Virus record (IMG/VR): IMGVR_UViG_3300033144_002959
Location: 1 to 64,000 of that record
Direction: 5' to 3' (one strand)
DNA from: a virus
Length of the DNA stretch: 64,000 nucleotides
A model generated the notes under the pieces. That model was not told the origin of the DNA. It made no database searches and worked only from the letters and a program-made list of their open reading frames with translations. Shown one piece after another: positions 2,783-62,546 of the stretch (position 1 is the stretch's first letter; each line of letters opens with the position of its first letter). Made by a program: the position numbers and the translations under genes.

Positions 2783-3395
2783 GGTACTCAGCCTCTACAA
2801 TGCGTAGCAAATCCATCGTTGCATCAGACACTTCCTGAAACGACGTTCGGTTGTTGACGTACTTCTCATACGATTCGGAATTTTCGTGTGGCACCAGATG
2901 CAGGCCCCCGGTCTTCGGAACACGTCGCCGTAGCCCGGTATCAAATTCCATTTCCAACAAGTCTTTAAGCAGACTGGACAACGCAAGGATATCTTTGCTC
3001 AGCCAGCTCAGAGGCATAATATATTTCTCTTCGCGAGTCACCGTCGCCATGATTCGGTTACGTTGCAAATTCACCAGCTCATTCATGCCAGACACAGCAT
3101 CAACGCGCTCACCCAGCCCCTCAAGGATGGCCATTTTTTCTTCGGTGGAAATCGGGTCCAATTGATTGGACGGTGCAGTCAGAAGTTCGGTTGATTTGTA
3201 CCGGGATAATTGCTTTGCAAGCGACGCCTCGGAGACGCCTTTGTATTTGCCCCAGTCTTTTTGAATGACCTTCGCAATGTCCAGTGAGTTTTCATTCTGC
3301 ATCATCATGGAATTGATCGATGCAATTCGTTCGTCGCCCAGTGCAAACAGCCGCTTGAATGCGGTTTTCTTTTTTGATTTGAAGGTTACCGACAT
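2724..3395 (-). CDS. Putative terminase small subunit
   Basis: 223 residues directly upstream of terL and overlapping it by 59 bases. The N-terminus is very basic (KSKKKTAFKR) and the middle is helical; residues 40-70 could form a helix-turn-helix (DIAKVIQKDW..SEASLAKQLSRY). Small terminase subunits recognise the packaging site and usually sit here. The call rests mainly on position and a DNA-binding-like N-terminus; the family is not recognised from sequence. Confidence 0.6.
   Translation of the reverse strand: MSVTFKSKKKTAFKRLFALGDERIASINSMMMQNENSLDIAKVIQKDWGKYKGVSEASLAKQLSRYKSTELLTAPSNQLDPISTEEKMAILEGLGERVDAVSGMNELVNLQRNRIMATVTREEKYIMPLSWLSKDILALSSLLKDLLEMEFDTGLRRRVPKTGGLHLVPHENSESYEKYVNNRTSFQEVSDATMDLLRIVEAEYHVIDNHNGSGAGQRRVSNS
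3156..3171. repeat. 16-bp near-palindrome, TG centre
   Basis: Exact GTCCAATTGATTGGAC inside the small-terminase gene. It is one of seven exact copies (two more are one-base variants) with 7-bp arms GTCCAAT/ATTGGAC around a two-base centre. Confidence 0.7.
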
Positions 3396-7114: not shown

Positions 7115-7647
7115 ATGAACAATCTCAGATTTTCAGCCTTCCATGCGTGTAATAGCTTTCGTTGATCGGCTTTCAGGTGGGGATCAAGATCAGGGCAACC
7201 GGCGTATAGACCAAGCGCAGCAAGACCAAACGCATCGCACTCATTATCGGTCCCTTCAAATCTCCATTGCTTATAAACCTCCAGCATTATACCGTCTTTT
7301 TTCGTGTTCCCCTTACCGGAAACAAACTTTTTTAATTGCGTCGGTGCGGCACTGGCCCACGGAATTCCCGACTCATGCAACGCCAGCCGGATAGCAGTTC
7401 CAATCTCGACCAACGTCACCAACGTATGTTTGTTCGCAAAGCCGTAACCCTCGATCACAACCAGATTCGGTTGAAACCCAATCAGGTCGTCTTTAACTCT
7501 CTGTCCAATTGATTGGACACGGGTCATGCCCTTCTGTCCGGGGAACGTAATCTCACCGCTCTGCACCACGTGAAGCGACTCACCGTCTTTGTCTTCCATC
7601 CAAACGAATCCAGTTTTCGTGGATGGGTCCAGTCCCATAACCTTCAT
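7111..7647 (-). CDS. ruvC: RuvC-like Holliday junction resolvase
   Basis: 178 residues with the RNase H-like layout of RuvC: first catalytic Asp in MGLDPSTKTG, Glu in VVIEGYGFANKH, then the APTQLKKFVSGKGNTKKDGI strand-helix and last acidic group in NECDAFGLAALG. RuvC cuts four-way junctions formed in recombination and packaging. It closes an operon starting at promoter 10193-10221: small protein, RecA, nuclease, Cas4-like nuclease, RuvC. Confidence 0.88.
   Translation of the reverse strand: MKVMGLDPSTKTGFVWMEDKDGESLHVVQSGEITFPGQKGMTRVQSIGQRVKDDLIGFQPNLVVIEGYGFANKHTLVTLVEIGTAIRLALHESGIPWASAAPTQLKKFVSGKGNTKKDGIMLEVYKQWRFEGTDNECDAFGLAALGLYAGCPDLDPHLKADQRKLLHAWKAENLRLFI
7503..7518. repeat. 16-bp near-palindrome, TG centre
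   Basis: Exact GTCCAATTGATTGGAC within ruvC. Being inside a gene makes a simple terminator role unlikely for this copy. Confidence 0.7.
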
Positions 7648-14896: not shown

Positions 14897-14925
14897 ATTA
14901 TAACATAGTGGATAACGTTTGTCAA
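14897..14925 (-). promoter_or_regulatory. Perfect-consensus sigma70 promoter
   Basis: Minus strand TTGACA (14920-14925), 17-base spacer, TATAAT (14897-14902): both boxes match the E. coli consensus exactly. It is followed by a long leader with GGAGGAAAG before 14783. Confidence 0.85.
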
Positions 14926-16206: not shown

Positions 16207-16380
16207 CCCCTCATTTCGTGAAGAAGGATTCTGCCACTACCGAGCAGGGCCTTCCACCCCATTCGCCGGGTTTGTGGTTTTATACTCCCACGAGTTAGCC
16301 GTTGCCGACTAGGTAGCCACCGGACTATTGCCTACGTGTCTTAACCAATACAGGGATTCGGGCACGTAGGCTCAGGGCCT
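16207..16380 (-). other. Structured leader of collagen-like gene
   Basis: The 174-base stretch has no gene but contains a perfect 9-bp inverted repeat (GCCTACGTG/CACGTAGGC, 24-base loop) and several smaller complementary blocks (for example CCAC/GTGG). It ends with the ribosome site of the collagen-like gene. It may be a regulatory RNA leader or a remnant; no known riboswitch was recognised. Confidence 0.4.
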
Positions 16381-16396
16381 GTCCAATCAATTGGAC
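16381..16396. repeat. 16-bp near-palindrome, CA centre
   Basis: Exact GTCCAATCAATTGGAC lying two bases after the stop of the gene at 16399-16722. Confidence 0.8.
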
Positions 16397-16398
16397 GA

Positions 16399-16722
16399 TC
16401 ACCCGCTGCGCTCGTCACGAATAAATTTGCTGACTGCACTAACAACTTCACCGACTGCCTCGCCATGCACAAACTGTCTGCTTCCCTCTGGCGGCGGACC
16501 TGCCAGCCCTTTCAGTACTTCACCCACATTGACACCGTGTGCCAACCATCGATCATAGTGCCCCTGCATGTTTTGCGAGAAATCCAAGTACGGGTGAACC
16601 TCACCATTCGGATGCAGCCAATACTGCCACGGAATTTCATGGCGCATCAGGCAAAAGCAATCGATCACTTCGACCAACGCCGAATAGCCGGGGTTCGTCA
16701 TTCGTTCTAACCTTTCACGCAT
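16399..16722 (-). CDS. Hypothetical protein after rtcB
   Basis: 107 residues overlapping the rtcB stop by 16 bases. Centre reads LMRHEIPWQYWLHPNGEVHPYLDF, with several His/Trp/Asp, and C-terminal helix VVSAVSKFIRDE. No family recognised. A second ATG seven codons in has an equally good AAGG site, so the start is uncertain. It is co-translated with RtcB, so an RNA-repair accessory role is possible but unproven. Confidence 0.55.
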   Translation of the reverse strand: MRERLERMTNPGYSALVEVIDCFCLMRHEIPWQYWLHPNGEVHPYLDFSQNMQGHYDRWLAHGVNVGEVLKGLAGPPPEGSRQFVHGEAVGEVVSAVSKFIRDERSG

Positions 16723-17897
16723 ACCACTGCCTTCAACGTATGATGAATTTCGACCAAATCTTTTTGTGCTTCCATCACCGCATCAATATCTTTGTACGCT
16801 GCCGGAGATTCATCGAGCATATCTTTATCCTTGCGACACTCTACGCCTTCCGTTGCCTTTGCATGATCCTCCAGCGTGATCGTTTTCTTGGCCTCCGTAC
16901 GTGACATACGACGACCGGCACCGTGGCTGCACGAGTCCAGAGAATTAGGCGTCTGATCTGTGCCCTTCACAATGTAACTCTTCGCACCCATTGAACCGGG
17001 AATAATCCCGTACGTATCCGGGGCGCATCGCACCGCACCTTTGCGCGTGACCCACAACGGAGTGCCGAAATGATTTTCCTGATTCACGTAATTGTGGTGA
17101 CAGTCAATCGCTGCCCCGGAAATCAGCATGTCAGAAAAGTTCTCCAGCATCGCATCCAGCACCAGTGACACCATCACCGCCCGGTTGCTAAACGCATAGC
17201 TCTGCGCCCACTGCACCGCATACACGTAATCATTGAACAGCTTCGTATTAGCAGTCAGGTACGCAAGGTCTTTGTCAGGTAGATTTATATCCAACCGCAA
17301 CATATCTTCTTTGGCCTTCTGAATAAAATACCGGCCAATGATGTTGCCGATGCCCCGGCTCCCTGAGTGCAGCATCACCCAAACCATATCCTCTTCGTCC
17401 AAACACACTTCGATAAAATGGTTCCCGCCGCCCAGCGTCCCAGTTTGAAATCGACACTTGTCCCACGGGTTGCCCTTGATCATAGTCTTAACCTTGGGAT
17501 GCGCCGACATAATGTGACTCAAGCCTTTCAGGTACGCATCATCCTTCACGTATCTCGGACGCTCGCTATGCTGATTAAACCCCACCGGCACCCGCTCTTC
17601 GATTGCTGAGCGCACTGCGCTAAGACTATCCGGCAACCAGCTGGCTTGAATGTTTGTACGTACCGCCAACATGCCGCAACCAATATCGACGCCAACAGCA
17701 GCCGGGATCACCACGTCTTTGGTCGCGACCACCGAGCCAACTGTCGCACCGATTCCCCAATGCACGTCTGGCATCACGCAAATCGCCTTAACGAAATCTA
17801 GGCTGGCCATATTCATTACCTGATCCCGAGCCTGATCTTCAAACTCAACCCCGTTCGCCCACGACCGTACCTTGCCCTCAAAAAATTCTTTGTACAT
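16707..17897 (-). CDS. rtcB: RtcB RNA-splicing/repair ligase
   Basis: 396 residues with all hallmark motifs of RtcB: MPDVHWGIGATVGSV, DIGCGM (metal-binding Cys), GTLGGGNHFIE, HSGSRGIG, HNYV, PGSMG, and CSHGAGRRMSR with the guanylylated His. The enzyme joins 2',3'-cyclic phosphate or 3'-phosphate ends to 5'-OH RNA using GTP and Mn2+. In a phage it may repair tRNAs cut by host anticodon nucleases. The phage also carries two tRNAs and a large noncoding RNA region nearby. Confidence 0.95.
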   Translation of the reverse strand: MYKEFFEGKVRSWANGVEFEDQARDQVMNMASLDFVKAICVMPDVHWGIGATVGSVVATKDVVIPAAVGVDIGCGMLAVRTNIQASWLPDSLSAVRSAIEERVPVGFNQHSERPRYVKDDAYLKGLSHIMSAHPKVKTMIKGNPWDKCRFQTGTLGGGNHFIEVCLDEEDMVWVMLHSGSRGIGNIIGRYFIQKAKEDMLRLDINLPDKDLAYLTANTKLFNDYVYAVQWAQSYAFSNRAVMVSLVLDAMLENFSDMLISGAAIDCHHNYVNQENHFGTPLWVTRKGAVRCAPDTYGIIPGSMGAKSYIVKGTDQTPNSLDSCSHGAGRRMSRTEAKKTITLEDHAKATEGVECRKDKDMLDESPAAYKDIDAVMEAQKDLVEIHHTLKAVVCVKG

Positions 17898-18621: not shown

Positions 18622-18879
18622 CTATCGAATATCCGGCAGCGGAACTCGCCGCGTTTTCATGCTCGTCAGCCACTCGGCAAATCGGTCTTCGTAATTTCCG
18701 TGGCCGAACGGTTTATCATTGTTATGGCACCACTGCAAGAATGCGAAAATTTCCTCCCACTCATCCACATACAACTCTTCCTCAAAGCTGGGGAAAATTT
18801 CATTCGGGTCCAGCGTCCCACACTCTTTCGCGCCTCGCGAAATCAACGTGTAATTTCTGTCACCCAGTTTTGTCATCAT
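18622..18879 (-). CDS. Hypothetical acidic protein
   Basis: 85 residues starting MMTKLGDRNYT, with GGAGGAAAAAAAG upstream and TAATG overlap. Aromatic/acidic centre (FEEELYVDEWEEIFAFLQW). No family recognised. Part of the run of small genes from promoter 19649-19677. Confidence 0.6.
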   Translation of the reverse strand: MMTKLGDRNYTLISRGAKECGTLDPNEIFPSFEEELYVDEWEEIFAFLQWCHNNDKPFGHGNYEDRFAEWLTSMKTRRVPLPDIR

Positions 18880-19094
18880 TACTTTTTTTCCTCCATGCCC
18901 ATGATCCGCTTCATTACGCGGTTCACCCAGTACCATTGATTGCCTGTTAGAAAATCATTGTCTCGGTACTGCTTACAAAGAGACGTCACAAAAACGACGT
19001 CTTCTTCAGCGACCATTTTTCGCTGCAAAAATAATTCCAGCGCAACGATTTCATTTGCTCGTCGCGCCAGAGTTTTATCGTGCGCCTTGGACAA
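18879..19094 (-). CDS. Hypothetical helical protein, TTG start
   Basis: 71 residues. The frame opens with TTG immediately after the previous stop (TAATTG) and no ATG is available before residue 27. Helical, basic; ends IMGMEEKK, where the GGAGGAAAA of its 3' end serves as the ribosome site of the next gene. No family recognised. Confidence 0.5.
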   Translation of the reverse strand: MSKAHDKTLARRANEIVALELFLQRKMVAEEDVVFVTSLCKQYRDNDFLTGNQWYWVNRVMKRIMGMEEKK

Positions 19095-19334
19095 TTAGAA
19101 TGCCATTGCGCGAACGTTGGCCATAGCCTTTGTGTTCGCAGCGGAAAGCAGCACGGTCTCACCGTTGGCCGAGATAATCTCGTCAACATAAATGCTGCCG
19201 ATGTCAGGAAAATATCCGTTGGCCTCATCGATCTTGACCATGCGAGTAATGCCCTTTTTGTTGTCGAACATTTCGCCAGTGCGGCCACCCGACATCACAA
19301 GTCGTGCACCTTTTTTCACGTCATTGATTAGCAT
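19095..19334 (-). CDS. Small hypothetical beta-rich protein
   Basis: 79 residues starting MLINDVKKG after GGAGGAAAAA. The pattern GARLVMSGGRTGEMFDNKKGITRMVKIDE..DIGSIYVDEI suggests a small barrel (SH3-like). Function unknown; such proteins are common among phage early genes. Confidence 0.6.
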   Translation of the reverse strand: MLINDVKKGARLVMSGGRTGEMFDNKKGITRMVKIDEANGYFPDIGSIYVDEIISANGETVLLSAANTKAMANVRAMAF

Positions 19335-19349
19335 TTTTTCCTCCATGTC

Positions 19350-19490
19350 TCAGCTATCATCACTATCGTCATTGTCTCCCGGCGTCCAACAGTCTGCACA
19401 GATACCGGTCTCAACAAATTCATCGCCGCAGATATCGGGCGTCAACGCCCTTCCACAACGCATACAATTCGGAACATTTTCACTTGCCAT
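19350..19490 (-). CDS. 46-residue zinc-ribbon-like protein
   Basis: Short frame with a strong AAGGAGG site. Begins MASENVPNCMRCGRAL; cysteines form C-x2-C (residues 9 and 12) and C-x2-C (residues 31 and 34), plus one Cys at 21, followed by an acidic tail DNDDSDDS. This fits a treble-clef or ribbon zinc site. First gene after promoter 19649-19677, thus probably early. A small regulator is possible. Confidence 0.65.
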   Translation of the reverse strand: MASENVPNCMRCGRALTPDICGDEFVETGICADCWTPGDNDDSDDS

Positions 19491-19503
19491 GCTTGCCTCC
19501 TTG

Positions 19504-19645
19504 TCACACACAAAAAAAGAGAGAGAAGCATCGTCGCCTCAAATTGAAAAGTCTCTCGGCTTGTTACGGCTACCCCGCAATCCCGCGCCCATTGCTACTT
19601 GGCTGTTGGGTTCAGCACGATTTATCTACGGTGCCGAGAAACAAT
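19504..19645 (-). other. Leader between promoter and zinc-ribbon gene
   Basis: About 140 bases without a convincing gene. It contains GAGAGAC matched by GTCTCTC-like blocks and ends with CTTCTCTCTC followed by seven T, which could act as an attenuator, and a 17-codon frame beginning ATGGGCGCGGGATTG without a good ribosome site. Confidence 0.35.
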
Positions 19646-19648
19646 AAT

Positions 19649-19677
19649 AGTATGCCACTCTGGCACACGTCTGTCAA
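19649..19677 (-). promoter_or_regulatory. Sigma70-like promoter
   Basis: Minus strand TTGACA (19672-19677), 17-base spacer, CATACT (19649-19654). It begins three bases past the CCA end of tRNA-Tyr and drives the small-gene/RtcB region. Confidence 0.75.
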
Positions 19678-19680
19678 ATA

Positions 19681-19765
19681 TGGTGGAGCAGGGAGGATTC
19701 GAACCTCCGACCTCTAGGGTGCCACGGGATTACAGCCCGACCGATTACCACTCTCGCACCGCTCC
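19681..19765 (-). tRNA. tRNA-Tyr (GTA)
   Basis: Minus strand acceptor GGAGCGG/CTGCTCC, discriminator A, encoded CCA. Anticodon loop CTGTAAT gives GTA. A long variable arm and T-arm GGTTCGAATCC match bacterial class II tRNA-Tyr. It is the last element of the long transcript expected from promoter 23363-23391, so it would need processing from a precursor. Confidence 0.93.
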
Positions 19766-19925
19766 AATCGAATTCAAGAGCGGGGTTCCGGCAACACCGG
19801 CACCCCCCGCAATCTGCACCGGCATCAGCCTTACGGTTTCAAACCGCTTCGACCATCCGTCGTCTGTACTTCGTTTCGTGTTGCCACGATTCCTTGGCCT
19901 AATCATTCCCTGAATGGCATAGTCT

Positions 19926-19942
19926 CTCAGCATTATGCTGAG
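19926..19942 (-). other. 7-bp hairpin beside a tiny frame
   Basis: Minus strand CTCAGCA-TAA-TGCTGAG. Upstream, TAGGAGAACGAC precedes ATG AAA AAC GCC TCA GCA TAA, a six-codon frame whose stop falls in the hairpin loop, and a second frame of 62 codons starts at the overlapping ATG and runs into tRNA-Tyr. This is either a leader peptide or part of the RNA fold. Confidence 0.35.
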
Positions 19943-20040
19943 GCGTTTTTCATGTCGTTCTCCTATCTGAAATTTTGAATTGCGCTCGCAACACTTATCG
20001 CGAAAGTTTCGAGGTACTTGGTACCTTGGCAAACGCAAAT

Positions 20041-20095
20041 CAAAAAGGACCGCAGCGCTTCTCTGCACAAAAGTGCGCAACCACTGACCTGCGGT
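20041..20095 (-). terminator. Terminator-like double hairpin in ncRNA region
   Basis: Minus strand: GACCGCA, an inner hairpin around GCGCACTTTTGTGC, then TGCGGTC followed by CTTTTTG. It may end the 3.3-kb RNA before the tRNA-Tyr segment, or be an internal domain or attenuator. Confidence 0.5.
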
Positions 20096-20696
20096 CAAAC
20101 TAAAATTTGGTCGATATGCAAAGCCTGTAGCAAACTTTGCACACTTCGGGCTTCCCACCCGCTTGCTGCTTCACGGTTCGTACGCTGTCCGGGCACCCGT
20201 TTTTCGCCAGTGCTTCCCGGTCCCTGCCCTCGCCTTTTTCATGACATAGAACAGCGCAACCCCTTTACCATATAGCCAGTTCGATCCTGTCGGGATAGAC
20301 ACTACATCGAATTTAATTCATGTGGTCAAGCTACCCTGATCACCACACAAAAGGCTTTTCAATTCATGCCGGTGATATCACTCGCCGGAAAGCGCCGCAG
20401 TTCCTTAGTATTTATATACCGGGACAAGTGCGGAAAGCACCCGGAATTTTGAGAAACACTCTCCGAAGAAAGCGCTTTTCAAATTGATCGAACACTTCGC
20501 TAACGGCCAGTACGGGAGGAATTAAAGCGGGGGTTTATTGAAATTTCGGCAGAACGCCAAAAACATTTGGCCTACAATTAAAGAGTTCAATCTTCAAAAA
20601 GATAACGGCTCGATTTTATAGAACTAGCAACCCTGCACTTTCGTGTTTTACGGGAAAAAGTTTACGCTTCAGTTCATATCGAACCGTTCAAAATTG

Positions 20697-20735
20697 GGGA
20701 GTTCTTACTTTATATTTTACTTGGCAGTCGAACCC
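20697..20735 (-). repeat. Duplicated RNA motif, copy A
   Basis: Minus strand GGGTTC-GACTGC-N5-AAAATATAAAGTAAG-AACTCCC. The same order recurs at 21612-21649; flanking stems differ but still pair. Confidence 0.6.
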
Positions 20736-21583
20736 TAAATCACTCCAAGTTTTTTTCGAACAATGGGGAGTTAATTCCATCCGAACGAGTGGCTTATCGC
20801 ATATGTCCACCTACGGGTCATGGTCTCGCTATCGTCATGCGCCCTGCTCTCGTATGCGGGGAACGAAGGATTTTCAACCCTGCCCTCAACAGGAACGATC
20901 ATGTCGGCGTCGCGCCGGAGTCGGTTTTGTCGTTTGACTACCTACGTCATTCTGGGTTTCTGAAACTCTTTATCGTTGGGAATGAGTACCAACTAGCCTG
21001 CTCCAAGGCCGGTGAACTTAACGCTGTTCTCTTACGCCATGATTATCGGCAGAGAGCCGATCACATGGTTCACACCACTTTGAAAATTCGAAGCGGAGGT
21101 CAATTCTATTTACCCAGCTACTATTGCAAGCTGGCCTTGTGAGGATCGCTGACTCCGCCCAGCGATGGCGGTACATATTTGCTTTGTGAAATGTTCGGAA
21201 CTGAGTGATCGAACACGCTGTCTTTCAAGCGTGTCGTCGTGACTGAGTCACTGTTTAATTTACTGGTGATCAAACCAGCAGGCGACAACTGCGCCATGTT
21301 CCAAACACTTTACAAAAATCTCTACTCGCGATTGGTCAACCGCATCGCATCCCACCGAGCTAAGGGCCAGCTTTTTCGTCTGGCCTTGTTGGCAGGCTCG
21401 ATATCGTCCTGCCTCACTCGCCACGCCGGGTTAGTCCCCCGGTCCAGCCTCGTCCGTTGTATCAACGAGTAGAGTTAAAATGGTTGGTAGTTGTATAAGC
21501 ACGGATACCAGCCGCCGCGATCTTTTTGCTGACGCTAACAGTGACAAGTTGCATCGTTTATATACCGGAGCCTTGTACCCGGT

Positions 21584-21599
21584 GTCCAATCAATTGGAC
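21584..21599. repeat. 16-bp near-palindrome, CA centre
   Basis: Exact GTCCAATCAATTGGAC within the noncoding region, just downstream (minus strand) of duplicated motif copy B. Confidence 0.75.
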
Positions 21600-21611
21600 A
21601 GTTTTCAATTT

Positions 21612-21649
21612 GGTCCCTTACTTTATATTTTGCGTCGCAGTCGGGAACC
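21612..21649 (-). repeat. Duplicated RNA motif, copy B
   Basis: Minus strand GGTTCCC-GACTGC-N5-AAAATATAAAGTAAG-GGACC. It shares a 15-base core and GACTGC with copy A at the same spacing, while the outer pairs change together. Confidence 0.6.
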
Positions 21650-22946
21650 ACTCGACGTTTTGGATATCCGCGCTACTGTATCAAAATAGGGCGGCGCGTA
21701 TTCTAATCAGGTACGCCCCGCTAAGAACTTTTTTGGTCATCTTAGAAACCACCCTAACGACTCACGTGGGACGTGCCGCACTGACATAGTCAGTGAACTA
21801 TCAAAATTCGTGAGCGGATACAGGAGACTGGCGAGTTGTCAGCCCGGTCGATTCTGTCACTCCGCTCGGAGCGTGCGATTAAAGTCCGCAACCCTCAAAT
21901 TCTATTAGCATAAATTCGATTCATAACGCCATCAATCACTGCCTCACGGTCTGGACATAAGTGATTTCATCTTTTGATCAAGTACCGGTTTTTAGGCCGT
22001 TCAATTTATCGACTCGATCAATGTGTTGGCGATCAAACGCTGCGCGGGCTTGGGCCTCATCGGCTATTACCCTCTTCCTGTTTGCCCGCTCTTATACGGG
22101 TTCTTGTTTTTTTTGCGGCTTACTAACATTCCCTATGGTCGCTAAACCTTTAAGGCGGAAATGACCTCAACCATCTAACAGCTTTGCAGCGATTATCACG
22201 CTTTATGCTTATCAAAAGTCACTACCGATGGTGAGTCGATTTACTCCGCCAGCAGCCTTCGAACTTCACAGCCGAAAACTTAGTTTTGAACAACTCAAAG
22301 AGCCGAACAAAATGTTGGTCGATTTACTACGCTTACAGCCAACAGCGTCACCGCCATTGACTTAGTCAATAGAAACTTCTGAAAAACAATTATGCTTTGT
22401 GATGCACTCCGCGTTACTCGTTACTCAAGTGGCCCTCTCACTTCAGCCCAATGGTCTTTCCACCATCGTTGAACCCTTTCAAGTTCCAGCTTACTAACTC
22501 TGCGACATGGCCCGCGATGCCCGACCTTATTGCTCACAAGACGATTCTTTCGAAACCCTTGCATACCCGAATTACACGGCGGCGGTCAAACGTAAATGCC
22601 TGACTCAACCCGATTACTCGGAAGCCAGTGAATCTCTTTGCAAGACCAATCATCCGGTGCTACCCGGTCCAAAGATCGAACACGTTGATTCCTGCCACAT
22701 CCTGATTTTACGCAGGAGTGATTGCCCTGATCATTAACGACTAACGTGTCAACGTCAGCAAACGCTAACAATCGGAATACATCAAAAAGCATATCCGCCA
22801 CACTTGGCAAGCACTCTATAATTTTACGATGGGAATTTTTCTCCCTTTACCCTCTCGGTGTGACCGATGGCAGTACGTTTGATTGAACCGCTATGGTAAA
22901 TGCTCGCTTGAGCATTGCAGCCGTTAGTCTGCGAAGCCGGGAACAT

Positions 22947-22991
22947 ACTCACCGTTCGATTCGAACGAACAGCATCCATTTCTGGGTGAGT
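22947..22991 (-). ncRNA. tRNA-like acceptor/T-arm element
   Basis: Minus strand ACTCACC, a 14-base linker, GTTCG-TTCGAAT-CGAAC, then GGTGAGT. The 7-bp outer helix and 5-bp arm with a seven-base TTCGAAT loop match a tRNA acceptor stacked on a T-arm, with D- and anticodon arms missing. No CCA follows. Confidence 0.5.
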
Positions 22992-23362
22992 AGTTTTGTA
23001 TCGGTAGCCCACCATCCTTACCAGCAACTATTTCTCAACGCGCTTCAGTTAAACAACTTCTTTAACCAGCTACATATATCGTCATAGCGCTTCAGTAAAG
23101 ACAGTGCCCGTAACCACTAGAACCGATCAAGTATTAAGACCAGTTCAATCAATTAGCAAGAGCGCTGCAAGGTGCAGCGGAAATTTGCTTTTCAATTTGA
23201 GACGACGGAAGTCCCGCACAGCTGCCGGATTGGATACCGGGCGGTTCTGATTGGGGCCGAAGCCTCTCTCTCTGGGCCGGTTAAGGTTCCTCTCCAGATT
23301 CCCTGTCTGTCAGGCCCTTTCGGGAGCGGGGAATTTTTTCTATCTTCTCATCCCACAAGTAT

Positions 23363-23391
23363 ATTATCTCATAGTGGGGCACGTTTGTCAA
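23363..23391 (-). promoter_or_regulatory. Strong promoter of the noncoding RNA region
   Basis: Minus strand TTGACA (23386-23391), 17-base spacer, GATAAT (23363-23368). 32 of 33 bases match the tRNA-His promoter region. No gene start follows. The 115 bases between it and dnaB (23392-23507) hold nothing recognisable. Confidence 0.85.
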
Positions 23392-23507
23392 ATTGTAGGG
23401 GGGTTTTCGTCAACTAAATAGTGACAATAATCAAGCACTTATACGATTTATTTCCACGTGCCTTCAAAAAGCACACGTAAAGCACTGAAATGGAGACTTT
23501 TTTGGCC

Positions 23508-24761
23508 TTAAACGTACACGAATTCGTCGGCTGAGGTCTCAGGTAGAATCTCGCTGAAGTCCATGAACGGGGGCGCATCGAAAATCCAGTTGATATAAAA
23601 TTCCATCTGCCCAGCGTCGCGAGCTTTGAGGATATCGACTTTCTTTTTAACGACGTATTCAATACTGCCAACTTCCTTTTCGTACAGCGCCAGAACACAA
23701 CTGCAAATTTGTCCGATAGCATCCGAGCCGCCGATGTTCTCCAGCTCTTTTTCTTTCGCGCCTTTCTTGTTGAACTGGTAGCTCAGCACACACGGAATAT
23801 TCAGCCGGGTCGATACGTCTGACTTGATTGTTTCCAGCGACTCCGCTACCCGCTCGTATCGCTTCGCGTATTTGTCATCGGTCTTCAACAGGTACGCGCC
23901 ATCGATATACAACACGTCCGGTTTCATCTGGTGCACGAGCATTTGAATGTCCTGAACTCTTGCAGTCAGGTTGCCATCGATGATCCAGAATTTATCGTGG
24001 GTGCCCTCCAATGCCGCCATGTCTGTGAGGATTTTCTTGTGTTTCTTTTTTAGAATCTCACCGCGCCTGAGCAGGGTGATCGAAAGTTTTTGGTGCATTG
24101 CCGTGATGCGTTGAATAAGCGGCAGCGGTTTCATTTCCATCGACACGAACATGACTCGCTTATTTTGTTTGTGCCATGCGTGGTGTGCCATTCTCAACAG
24201 CTGATAAGTTTTACCTTGCCCCGGCCTGCCGACGATTGCCATCACGTCGCCGCCGCGTAAACTCCCAATCATTCCGTCGAGTGTCGGATACCCAGTCAGC
24301 ACACCGGGCAGCAAGTGCCCTTTGTTAAGCATCTGAAATTCGGCATCAATAATGTCCGGGCCATCGGTCGCGTAATCCATGATCTGATTCATCGACGTTC
24401 GGGTTGTGATGTTAACCATCATTTCGCGAAACAAATCCAACGCCGCTTCGGGATTCTTTTCGGCCAACTCGATCTGTGCACCTTTCATTGCAGACACAAT
24501 GGTGCGATGCGTGAACCGCTTCACGACATCATCGAAATAATACTCGGGGGTCTCCAGCCCATCGGGCACTTCCATGATCCCGCATGTCTGCGGTTTTGGC
24601 AGTGATCCGTATTTGGCTAAGTGCCCTTGAATCTCATCATATAATTCTAACTCTGGTCCCCGAAACAAACCTTCATGGATGCCCATCCCGAGATACTTTT
24701 CGGTTCCTTTGGGGTCAACCAATAGGCTTGTCAGGAATCGCTTCCCTGACAATACCGCCAC
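23508..24761 (-). CDS. dnaB: Replicative DNA helicase (DnaB-like)
   Basis: 417 residues. A small N-terminal domain precedes the RecA-like core: Walker A VGRPGQGKT (about 178-186), RVMFVSMEMK (motif 1a), Walker B DVLYIDGAYLL, and CVLSYQFNKKG..IGGSDAIGQ (motifs 3 and 4). It unwinds the fork as a ring hexamer with the primase at 12801-13775. It follows the gene at 24776-25303 by 14 bases. Confidence 0.9.
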   Translation of the reverse strand: MAVLSGKRFLTSLLVDPKGTEKYLGMGIHEGLFRGPELELYDEIQGHLAKYGSLPKPQTCGIMEVPDGLETPEYYFDDVVKRFTHRTIVSAMKGAQIELAEKNPEAALDLFREMMVNITTRTSMNQIMDYATDGPDIIDAEFQMLNKGHLLPGVLTGYPTLDGMIGSLRGGDVMAIVGRPGQGKTYQLLRMAHHAWHKQNKRVMFVSMEMKPLPLIQRITAMHQKLSITLLRRGEILKKKHKKILTDMAALEGTHDKFWIIDGNLTARVQDIQMLVHQMKPDVLYIDGAYLLKTDDKYAKRYERVAESLETIKSDVSTRLNIPCVLSYQFNKKGAKEKELENIGGSDAIGQICSCVLALYEKEVGSIEYVVKKKVDILKARDAGQMEFYINWIFDAPPFMDFSEILPETSADEFVYV

Positions 24762-28790: not shown

Positions 28791-28803
28791 AGAGAAACTA
28801 ACC

Positions 28804-28819
28804 GTCCAATCAATTGGAC
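28804..28819. repeat. 16-bp near-palindrome, CA centre
   Basis: Exact GTCCAATCAATTGGAC overlapping the stop of the sulfotransferase gene, 14 bases upstream of promoter 28762-28790. Confidence 0.8.
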
Positions 28820-29397
28820 AGCAGGCCCTTCCATTCTTTTTTCCAATCGCTCGTTGGCGGCGACTCATACCAACCGCCCATGTCAGAAATCTTCTGCCAC
28901 AGTTTGTAGTCTTCAGCAAATTTATCCGCCGCTACTTTCTTCACCAGCGGATTTTCGTAATACGTTTCCCAAGGATCATGCTTAGACCTGCGACGATGCT
29001 GGGTCCGGTTGTACAACTTCGTGCCTTTGAACTTTTCAAGCTCTCGCAAGCCCACTTCATTAAGCGTTTCCAGAGTACCGATGTACAACCGCCCCGAAGG
29101 TTCCAGCTCAGTCCAATCGATTACCTGCTGAATGCCATAAATCTGTGGCTCGAAATGGTGATCCATTTCTTCATTCGTCAGCTTGCATATTTTAGGTACG
29201 AACAAATCGAAGGTTTCATGCCTGACCAGATCAGACCACCCTGAGACAAGCCTAGCGAGCGGGTGACGGACAAAGAACACAAACCGATGTAACGGGTAGC
29301 CCCCCCGTGCTCCGGGCCGTAGGGCGGCTCCTAGTGTGCTGGAGCCAACTTTCTTGACCAGAGCATACCGGGTACTCCGATCATCAAAGTGCTCCAT
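28810..29397 (-). CDS. Second sulfotransferase family 2-like protein
   Basis: 195 residues. KKVGSSTLGAALRPG fits the PAPS 5' loop and VRHPLARLVSGWSDL the 3'-phosphate motif; HDPWETYYENP near the C-terminus is shared with the copy at 253-870. Lies after the lysis cassette, starting one base after the Rz1 stop (TAAATG). The acceptor could be a tail fibre, capsule sugar or lipid; no sequence evidence decides. Confidence 0.75.
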   Translation of the reverse strand: MEHFDDRSTRYALVKKVGSSTLGAALRPGARGGYPLHRFVFFVRHPLARLVSGWSDLVRHETFDLFVPKICKLTNEEMDHHFEPQIYGIQQVIDWTELEPSGRLYIGTLETLNEVGLRELEKFKGTKLYNRTQHRRRSKHDPWETYYENPLVKKVAADKFAEDYKLWQKISDMGGWYESPPTSDWKKEWKGLLSN

Positions 29398-40427: not shown

Positions 40428-40438
40428 GAGCTACCCCT

Positions 40439-40454
40439 GTCCAATTGATTGGAC
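40439..40454. repeat. 16-bp near-palindrome, TG centre
   Basis: Exact GTCCAATTGATTGGAC, one base from the stop of 40456-40866 and 12 bases before the start of 40053-40427. Confidence 0.8.
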
Positions 40455-40455
40455 G

Positions 40456-58183: not shown

Positions 58184-58220
58184 AACTAGGGGGACGTCCA
58201 ATTGATTGGACAATCCCCCC
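58184..58220 (-). terminator. Terminator built around the 16-bp palindrome
   Basis: Minus strand: GGGGGG, then GTCCAATCAATTGGAC, then TCCCCC followed by TAGTTTTAAT. The palindrome (58196-58211) is extended by a G/C stem. It lies between the tail-tube and chaperone genes, where it may cut transcript levels. Confidence 0.6.
58196..58211. repeat. 16-bp near-palindrome, TG centre
   Basis: Exact GTCCAATTGATTGGAC, 23 bases after the tail-tube stop and inside a larger stem-loop. Confidence 0.8.
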
Positions 58221-62458: not shown

Positions 62459-62514
62459 ATCGGTCTCCTATTACGCCCCTTCACTTATCAGGCACCACGC
62501 CCAATACATTTTTT

Positions 62515-62530
62515 GTCCAACCAATTGGAC
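62515..62530. repeat. Variant 16-bp near-palindrome
   Basis: GTCCAACCAATTGGAC, one arm base changed from the exact form. It lies between the capsid-gene terminator and the next gene. Confidence 0.6.
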
Positions 62531-62546
62531 AGGACTGAAACTAAGA

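Follow-up and report, generated by a model that had tools for sequence, protein, structure and literature searches.

In a 93.7-kb IMG/VR virus record, the largest gap between coding sequences is best read as a stand-alone gene for a stable RNA of ~3.3 kb, or of 3.6 kb if the transcript reaches tRNA-Tyr, a reading to which we assign a probability of roughly 0.6. That the region is an RNA gene is likely, and the odds that it specifies one RNA with a length of 3 kb or more are about even. The window analyzed here comprises the first 64 kb of the record, a tightly packed, siphovirus-like genome with a major capsid protein 57% identical to that of Stenotrophomonas phage DLP_5. The proposed RNA and its neighbors are as follows.

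20042..23357, minus strand: proposed giant structured RNA, ~3.3 kb, with no credible gene, a fold z of -4.4, a hairpin excess and the internal covarying repeat M1
23508-24761, minus strand: dnaB, encoding a DnaB-like helicase, upstream of the RNA region and accompanied by a DnaD-like loader gene
19681..19765, minus strand: tRNA-Tyr (GTA), directly downstream of the RNA region
16707-17897, minus strand: rtcB, RtcB RNA ligase gene (phrog_1075, Pfam RtcB), in the cluster that follows tRNA-Tyr and promoter P3

A gap without credible genes

The order on the minus strand is dnaB, RNA region, tRNA-Tyr, promoter P3, small genes and rtcB. The DnaB-like helicase is 35% identical to that of Rhizobium phage RHph_Y1_11 and up to ~42% identical to sequences in IMG/VR; for the phage RtcB, the best relatives among the IMG/VR matches listed are 57% identical. 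The small-gene stretch behind tRNA-Tyr folds strongly at 18800-19200 on both strands (z to about -3.7).

The gap runs from the end of tRNA-Tyr at 19765 to the end of dnaB at 23508 (19766-23508). A gene caller based on codon usage, which placed every accepted gene of the genome on the minus strand, left a gap of 4162 bp at this position (19346-23508, including the tRNA); the second-largest gap by the same caller measures 1194 bp and contains a 313-codon open frame. The base composition of the RNA region matches the rest of the phage, and the cumulative GC skew passes through it without a turn. No ORF of at least 25 aa led by a ribosome-binding site (RBS) was found on the transcribed (minus) strand of the gap. 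On the non-transcribed plus strand, such ORFs account for 18% of the gap; stops there are somewhat below expectation (39-44 vs 57 per frame), and we read these ORFs as chance frames. As a yardstick, the same test was applied to the gap with a true GOLLD RNA in phage contig L130, where coverage was 14%, and to ten other long gaps of phage contigs, where it reached 48-87% because those gaps are small-gene clusters. A Pfam search with five long read-through translations of the gap gave no match above chance.

These results bear out the initial annotation, which had described 3.6 kb without a credible gene (19766-23356) as exceptional in a packed phage genome: its coordinates hold, the gap is the largest of the record, and the protein search for a conserved gene, named there as a possible refutation, returned no Pfam match.

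Promoters, folding and internal repeats

The signals that delimit the proposed transcript are listed below.

23363..23391, minus strand: promoter P1, TTGACA-17-GATAAT with an extended -10 TG, 11/12 matches; predicted RNA start at ~23357
19649..19677, minus strand: promoter P3, 10/12 matches, extended -10, directly behind tRNA-Tyr
20042..20096, minus strand: terminator-like helix of 8 bp, GACCGCAG/CTGCGGTC, then CTTTTTG; the main RNA may end here
19766..20041, minus strand: linker with strong hairpins that joins the terminator-like helix to tRNA-Tyr; would extend the RNA at its 3' end should the terminator leak

The minus-strand consensus promoter previously claimed for the start of the region is present as P1, ~115 bp behind the dnaB stop. 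The 33 nt over P1 (23362-23394) recur, 32/33 identical, at 218-250, immediately before tRNA-His, and the whole genome contains four sites of this promoter form, namely P1, the tRNA-His site, P3 and a site at 14925 before a protein gene. Because the form is found both before tRNA-His and at P1, the phage employs the same promoter for tRNA and RNA region. On the same strand, no second promoter with at least 9/12 matches was found between P1 and tRNA-Tyr, and P3 sets the rtcB gene cluster apart from the RNA unit. The P1 pattern matched three unrelated contigs and is a general strong promoter form. Nearly the same form, TTGACAnACGTGnnCCAnnnTGnnATA, with a palindrome-like spacer, occurs in the unrelated phage contigs L253 (3658-3684), L254 (2670-2696) and L255 (1786-1812), and may represent a strong promoter or operator design that recurs.

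At the other end, a helix corresponding to the terminator-like hairpin previously placed at 20041-20095 was found at 20042-20096, enclosing a second hairpin and with a large loop (-25.4 kcal/mol, z -2.6); it does not have textbook terminator form and may be leaky. The claim that the region ends in tRNA-Tyr is right as to position, the tRNA ending at 19765; in the case of read-through, RNase P cleavage at the tRNA 5' end would set the RNA 3' end at 19766. Between the helix and the tRNA, 19897-19966 holds a tiny frame (ATG AAA AAC GCC TCA GCA TAA) with a good RBS, AGGAG, overlapping a 7-bp hairpin.

We then folded the whole region, allowing pairs up to 200 nt apart, and compared hairpin counts with those of dinucleotide shuffles (n=60). 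The whole-length fold z reached -4.4 on the RNA strand and -2.5 on the opposite one, whereas two coding stretches gave -0.1 and +0.6; 200-nt windows ranked in the same order, with a mean z of -1.5 in the region vs -0.4 in the flanking genes. Thus, the folding is biased toward the strand read from P1. Perfect stems of at least 6 bp numbered 18 vs 7.7 +- 2.9 in shuffles (maximum 17), and those of at least 7 bp numbered 8 vs 1.9 +- 1.3 (maximum 5); eight coding stretches gave 3-10 and 0-4, respectively. Of the earlier statement that hairpins are far more frequent than at random, an excess of about 2.3-fold and 4-fold in these two classes stands, but longer stems are not enriched over shuffles. 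When folded with a short span, the region breaks up into some 20 domains, each of 47-248 nt. Pairs of directly repeated 9-mers were also in excess (66 vs 26 expected), a result given little weight because coding windows show it too, a few more strongly. There was no excess of long-range inverted repeats in the region, and no iterons or tandem arrays, just short two-copy repeats. The repeats of interest are these.

21617..21663, minus strand: first copy of M1, a 10-bp bulged hairpin with the 3' tail AAAATATAAAGTAAG
20704..20755, minus strand: second copy of M1, with three compensatory double changes relative to the first
22306..22343, minus strand: M2, which resembles 20098-20135; weak, BLAST E 0.24
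20098..20135, minus strand: M2 copy, adjoining the terminator-like helix
21583..21600, no strand assigned: 18-bp palindrome TGTCCAAYYRRTTGGACA, the one copy inside the RNA region
3155-3172, 7502-7519, 16380-16397, 21583-21600, 28803-28820, 40438-40455, 58195-58212 and 62514-62531: all copies of TGTCCAAYYRRTTGGACA in the window

M1 is the strongest internal repeat of the region (34.0 bits vs a maximum of 28.3 among 400 shuffles). Its copies, 0.9 kb apart, fold to the same bulged 10-bp hairpin and have the common tail AAAAUAUAAAGUAAG, the 15-nt 3' tail AAAATATAAAGTAAG being identical in both. Seven of the ten pairs are identical, three are compensated (G-C to U-A, C-G to G-C, G-C to A-U) and none is broken; when the partner was slid by 1-3 columns, pairing fell to 15-50%. 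The pair count was matched by 73/500 shuffles, a control that is weak with two sequences, and the top self-matches of shuffled RNA contained at least two compensations in 13/400 cases and three in 2/400. Duplication and compensation jointly provide small but direct evidence of selected RNA structure, neither being decisive alone. A covariance model of M1 detected no further copy, either in the window or in 66 loci. The ATCGAC core of M2 is also found at 22235-22257. The giant non-coding RNA proposed in the initial annotation is supported in part: the non-coding character, the minus strand, the own promoter and the structure hold, and the internal covariation of M1 adds small support, but a broad scan of other internal repeat pairs found compensation no higher than in shuffled RNA.

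The palindrome TGTCCAAYYRRTTGGACA is a genome-wide element: its 16-bp core occurs 11 times, often just before genes, with 8 copies in the window (0.3 expected) and three more beyond 64 kb. Four near relatives (G001, G003, G004 and G009) carry it at matching sites, with the center flipping between TCAA and TTGA, and it looks like a putative site for a phage DNA-binding protein. Since the RNA region carries this palindrome of the genome and its near relatives, it is part of the phage lineage rather than an assembly chimera.

Search for relatives and comparison with known large phage RNAs

Rfam covariance models gave no match in the region at E<=10, including those of GOLLD, ROOL, OLE and HEARO, for which there was also none at the gathering threshold; this search, which the initial annotation had called for after failing to match GOLLD or ROOL, agrees with its statement. 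As a positive control, the same search recovered GOLLD (RF02032) in L130 at 151 bits. This RNA (L130 12756-13189) contains tRNA-Ile and lies in a phage contig with 13 tRNAs and rtcB, the latter ~3.6 kb away. A group I or group II intron was considered and dropped, since Rfam gave nothing at E<=10 and the read-through frames had no counterpart in Pfam.

Comparison of the region by blastn with phages and plasmids revealed no relative; in 50 viral records, blastn found chance words and the shared palindrome only, as did nhmmer and blastn against 48 DnaB-bearing loci. Pattern scans with the repeated motifs across IMG/VR and GTDB genomes yielded one false match inside a coding gene and otherwise none, and a scan with one DnaB sequence in IMG/VR or GTDB genomes gave no relative. 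The 48 aligned DnaB loci (up to 42% identity) contained no gap of at least 600 bp by a permissive test, although the window itself still shows one of 1134 bp under that test. The nearest relatives (capsid 86-94%) consist of fragments aligning to 49-85 kb of the record, and the locus lies outside them; in relatives further away that carry capsid and DnaB together, both the region sequence and a comparable gap are absent. Large gaps in four relatives (G006, G045, G010 and G019) and at most RtcB loci were rejected as counterparts, being small-gene clusters. The region is therefore an orphan in the collections searched, and the sequence evidence comes from one record.

GOLLD and ROOL are found near tRNA genes, rise or are abundant in infection, and form RNA-only cages of unknown function (PMC12286853). 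GOLLD, many members of which exceed 800 nt, is reported to form a 14-mer cage and was pulled down with ribosomes, and ROOL has an elaborate fold and forms an octameric cage (PMC12286853). Like GOLLD, a large structured phage or prophage RNA with its own gene, a tRNA beside or inside it and no protein product, the proposed RNA lies among phage genes with tRNA-Tyr directly downstream; however, it is ~3.3 kb long, and no common sequence was seen, including the conserved 3' half covered by RF02032. ROOL is likewise a phage or prophage RNA near tRNA genes but several times shorter than the proposed RNA, and the elaborate fold and cage are properties of ROOL. Among other precedents, ICP1 makes an abundant ncRNA of ~800 nt and PLE satellites have a ~3-kb non-coding region holding their origin (PMC7567579). 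Both resemble our case in being ORF-less stretches of a phage or satellite, the very abundant transcripts being theirs; however, ICP1 has no tRNA, the PLE region includes an origin, and the region studied here has no DNA similarity to any phage record. Phage K, a Kayvirus, carries several lncRNAs, of which lnc001 and lnc002 lie beside tRNA genes, are highly expressed and include at least one with its own promoter (PMC9241854). They share with the proposed RNA the placement of a long RNA beside a tRNA but belong to another phage group without DNA similarity to ours.

Alternative explanations and proposed role

Several smaller structured RNAs side by side, or one precursor cut into several, are possible though unlikely. 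The 20 or so short-span domains (47-248 nt) would fit such an arrangement, as would the two M1 copies if they mark two units with a common module, and phage K offers a precedent with its several lncRNAs (PMC9241854); yet between P1 and tRNA-Tyr that strand has no further promoter of at least 9/12, and no internal terminator looked convincing. The location immediately after the replication genes, next to those for the DnaB helicase and the DnaD-like loader, would also suit a cis-acting DNA region, transcribed or not, acting in replication initiation, packaging or control, as in the 3-kb non-coding region of PLE satellites that holds the origin (PMC7567579), and one copy of the genome-wide palindrome lies inside. 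This explanation is improbable: short two-copy repeats stand in place of iterons or tandem arrays, the cumulative GC skew does not turn, the remaining palindrome copies are scattered over the genome, and the folding excess is greater on one strand.

Decayed protein genes or a recently acquired functionless stretch would account for the lack of homologs. However, the five read-through translations have no Pfam match, the composition is like that of the phage, and the phage's own promoter form and palindrome are kept; nor would junk be expected to fold 4.4 sd beyond shuffles or to hold a duplicated, compensated hairpin, and we consider this very improbable. It is most improbable that the region encodes, on one strand or the other, a series of very small or leaderless proteins missed by gene finders and profile libraries. 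Long gaps in many IMG/VR relatives did prove to be small-gene clusters, and the shortage of plus-strand stops (39-44 vs 57 per frame) points the same way, but RBS-led ORFs of at least 25 aa are absent from the transcribed strand and cover 18% of the gap, against 48-87% in real clusters, and all caller-accepted genes of the genome are on the minus strand. Against the giant-RNA reading itself stands the observation that distant relatives with the same DnaB neighborhood do without the region.

We infer transcription of the region, its synthesis as a single molecule, its termination or processing and every part of its function. Under the preferred reading of a stand-alone RNA gene, the minus-strand unit would yield one very large structured ncRNA, from ~23357 to ~20042, using the promoter type that would also drive tRNA-His; leaky read-through past the helix would extend into tRNA-Tyr and be cut there by RNase P. 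The RNA would fold into many local hairpin domains, with the repeated M1 modules probably serving as joints or binding sites, and would be produced in large amounts in infected cells. As its most likely role we tentatively propose that of a scaffold or particle with a link to translation or tRNA, by analogy, because GOLLD and ROOL, near tRNAs, form cages and ICP1 and phage K make abundant long ncRNAs. Such a scaffold or homo-oligomeric particle, like those of GOLLD and ROOL, might hold or shield either a phage component or elements of the translation machinery (tRNA, ribosome). The most far-reaching version, in which one structured ncRNA of 3.3-3.6 kb, exceeding 23S rRNA in length and unmatched in the searched collections, assembles into an RNA particle in infected cells, is doubtful.

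If expressed as one RNA, the molecule would be unusually long, with about four times the length of known large phage RNAs. Nearly 4% of the phage genome would then be given to one RNA, controlled by a tRNA-type promoter and adjacent to tRNA-Tyr, with rtcB one gene cluster further on. For GOLLD and ROOL, whose cage structures have been solved, no function is known; the RNA proposed here would, if real, widen the size range of large phage RNAs and provide a test system for their function.
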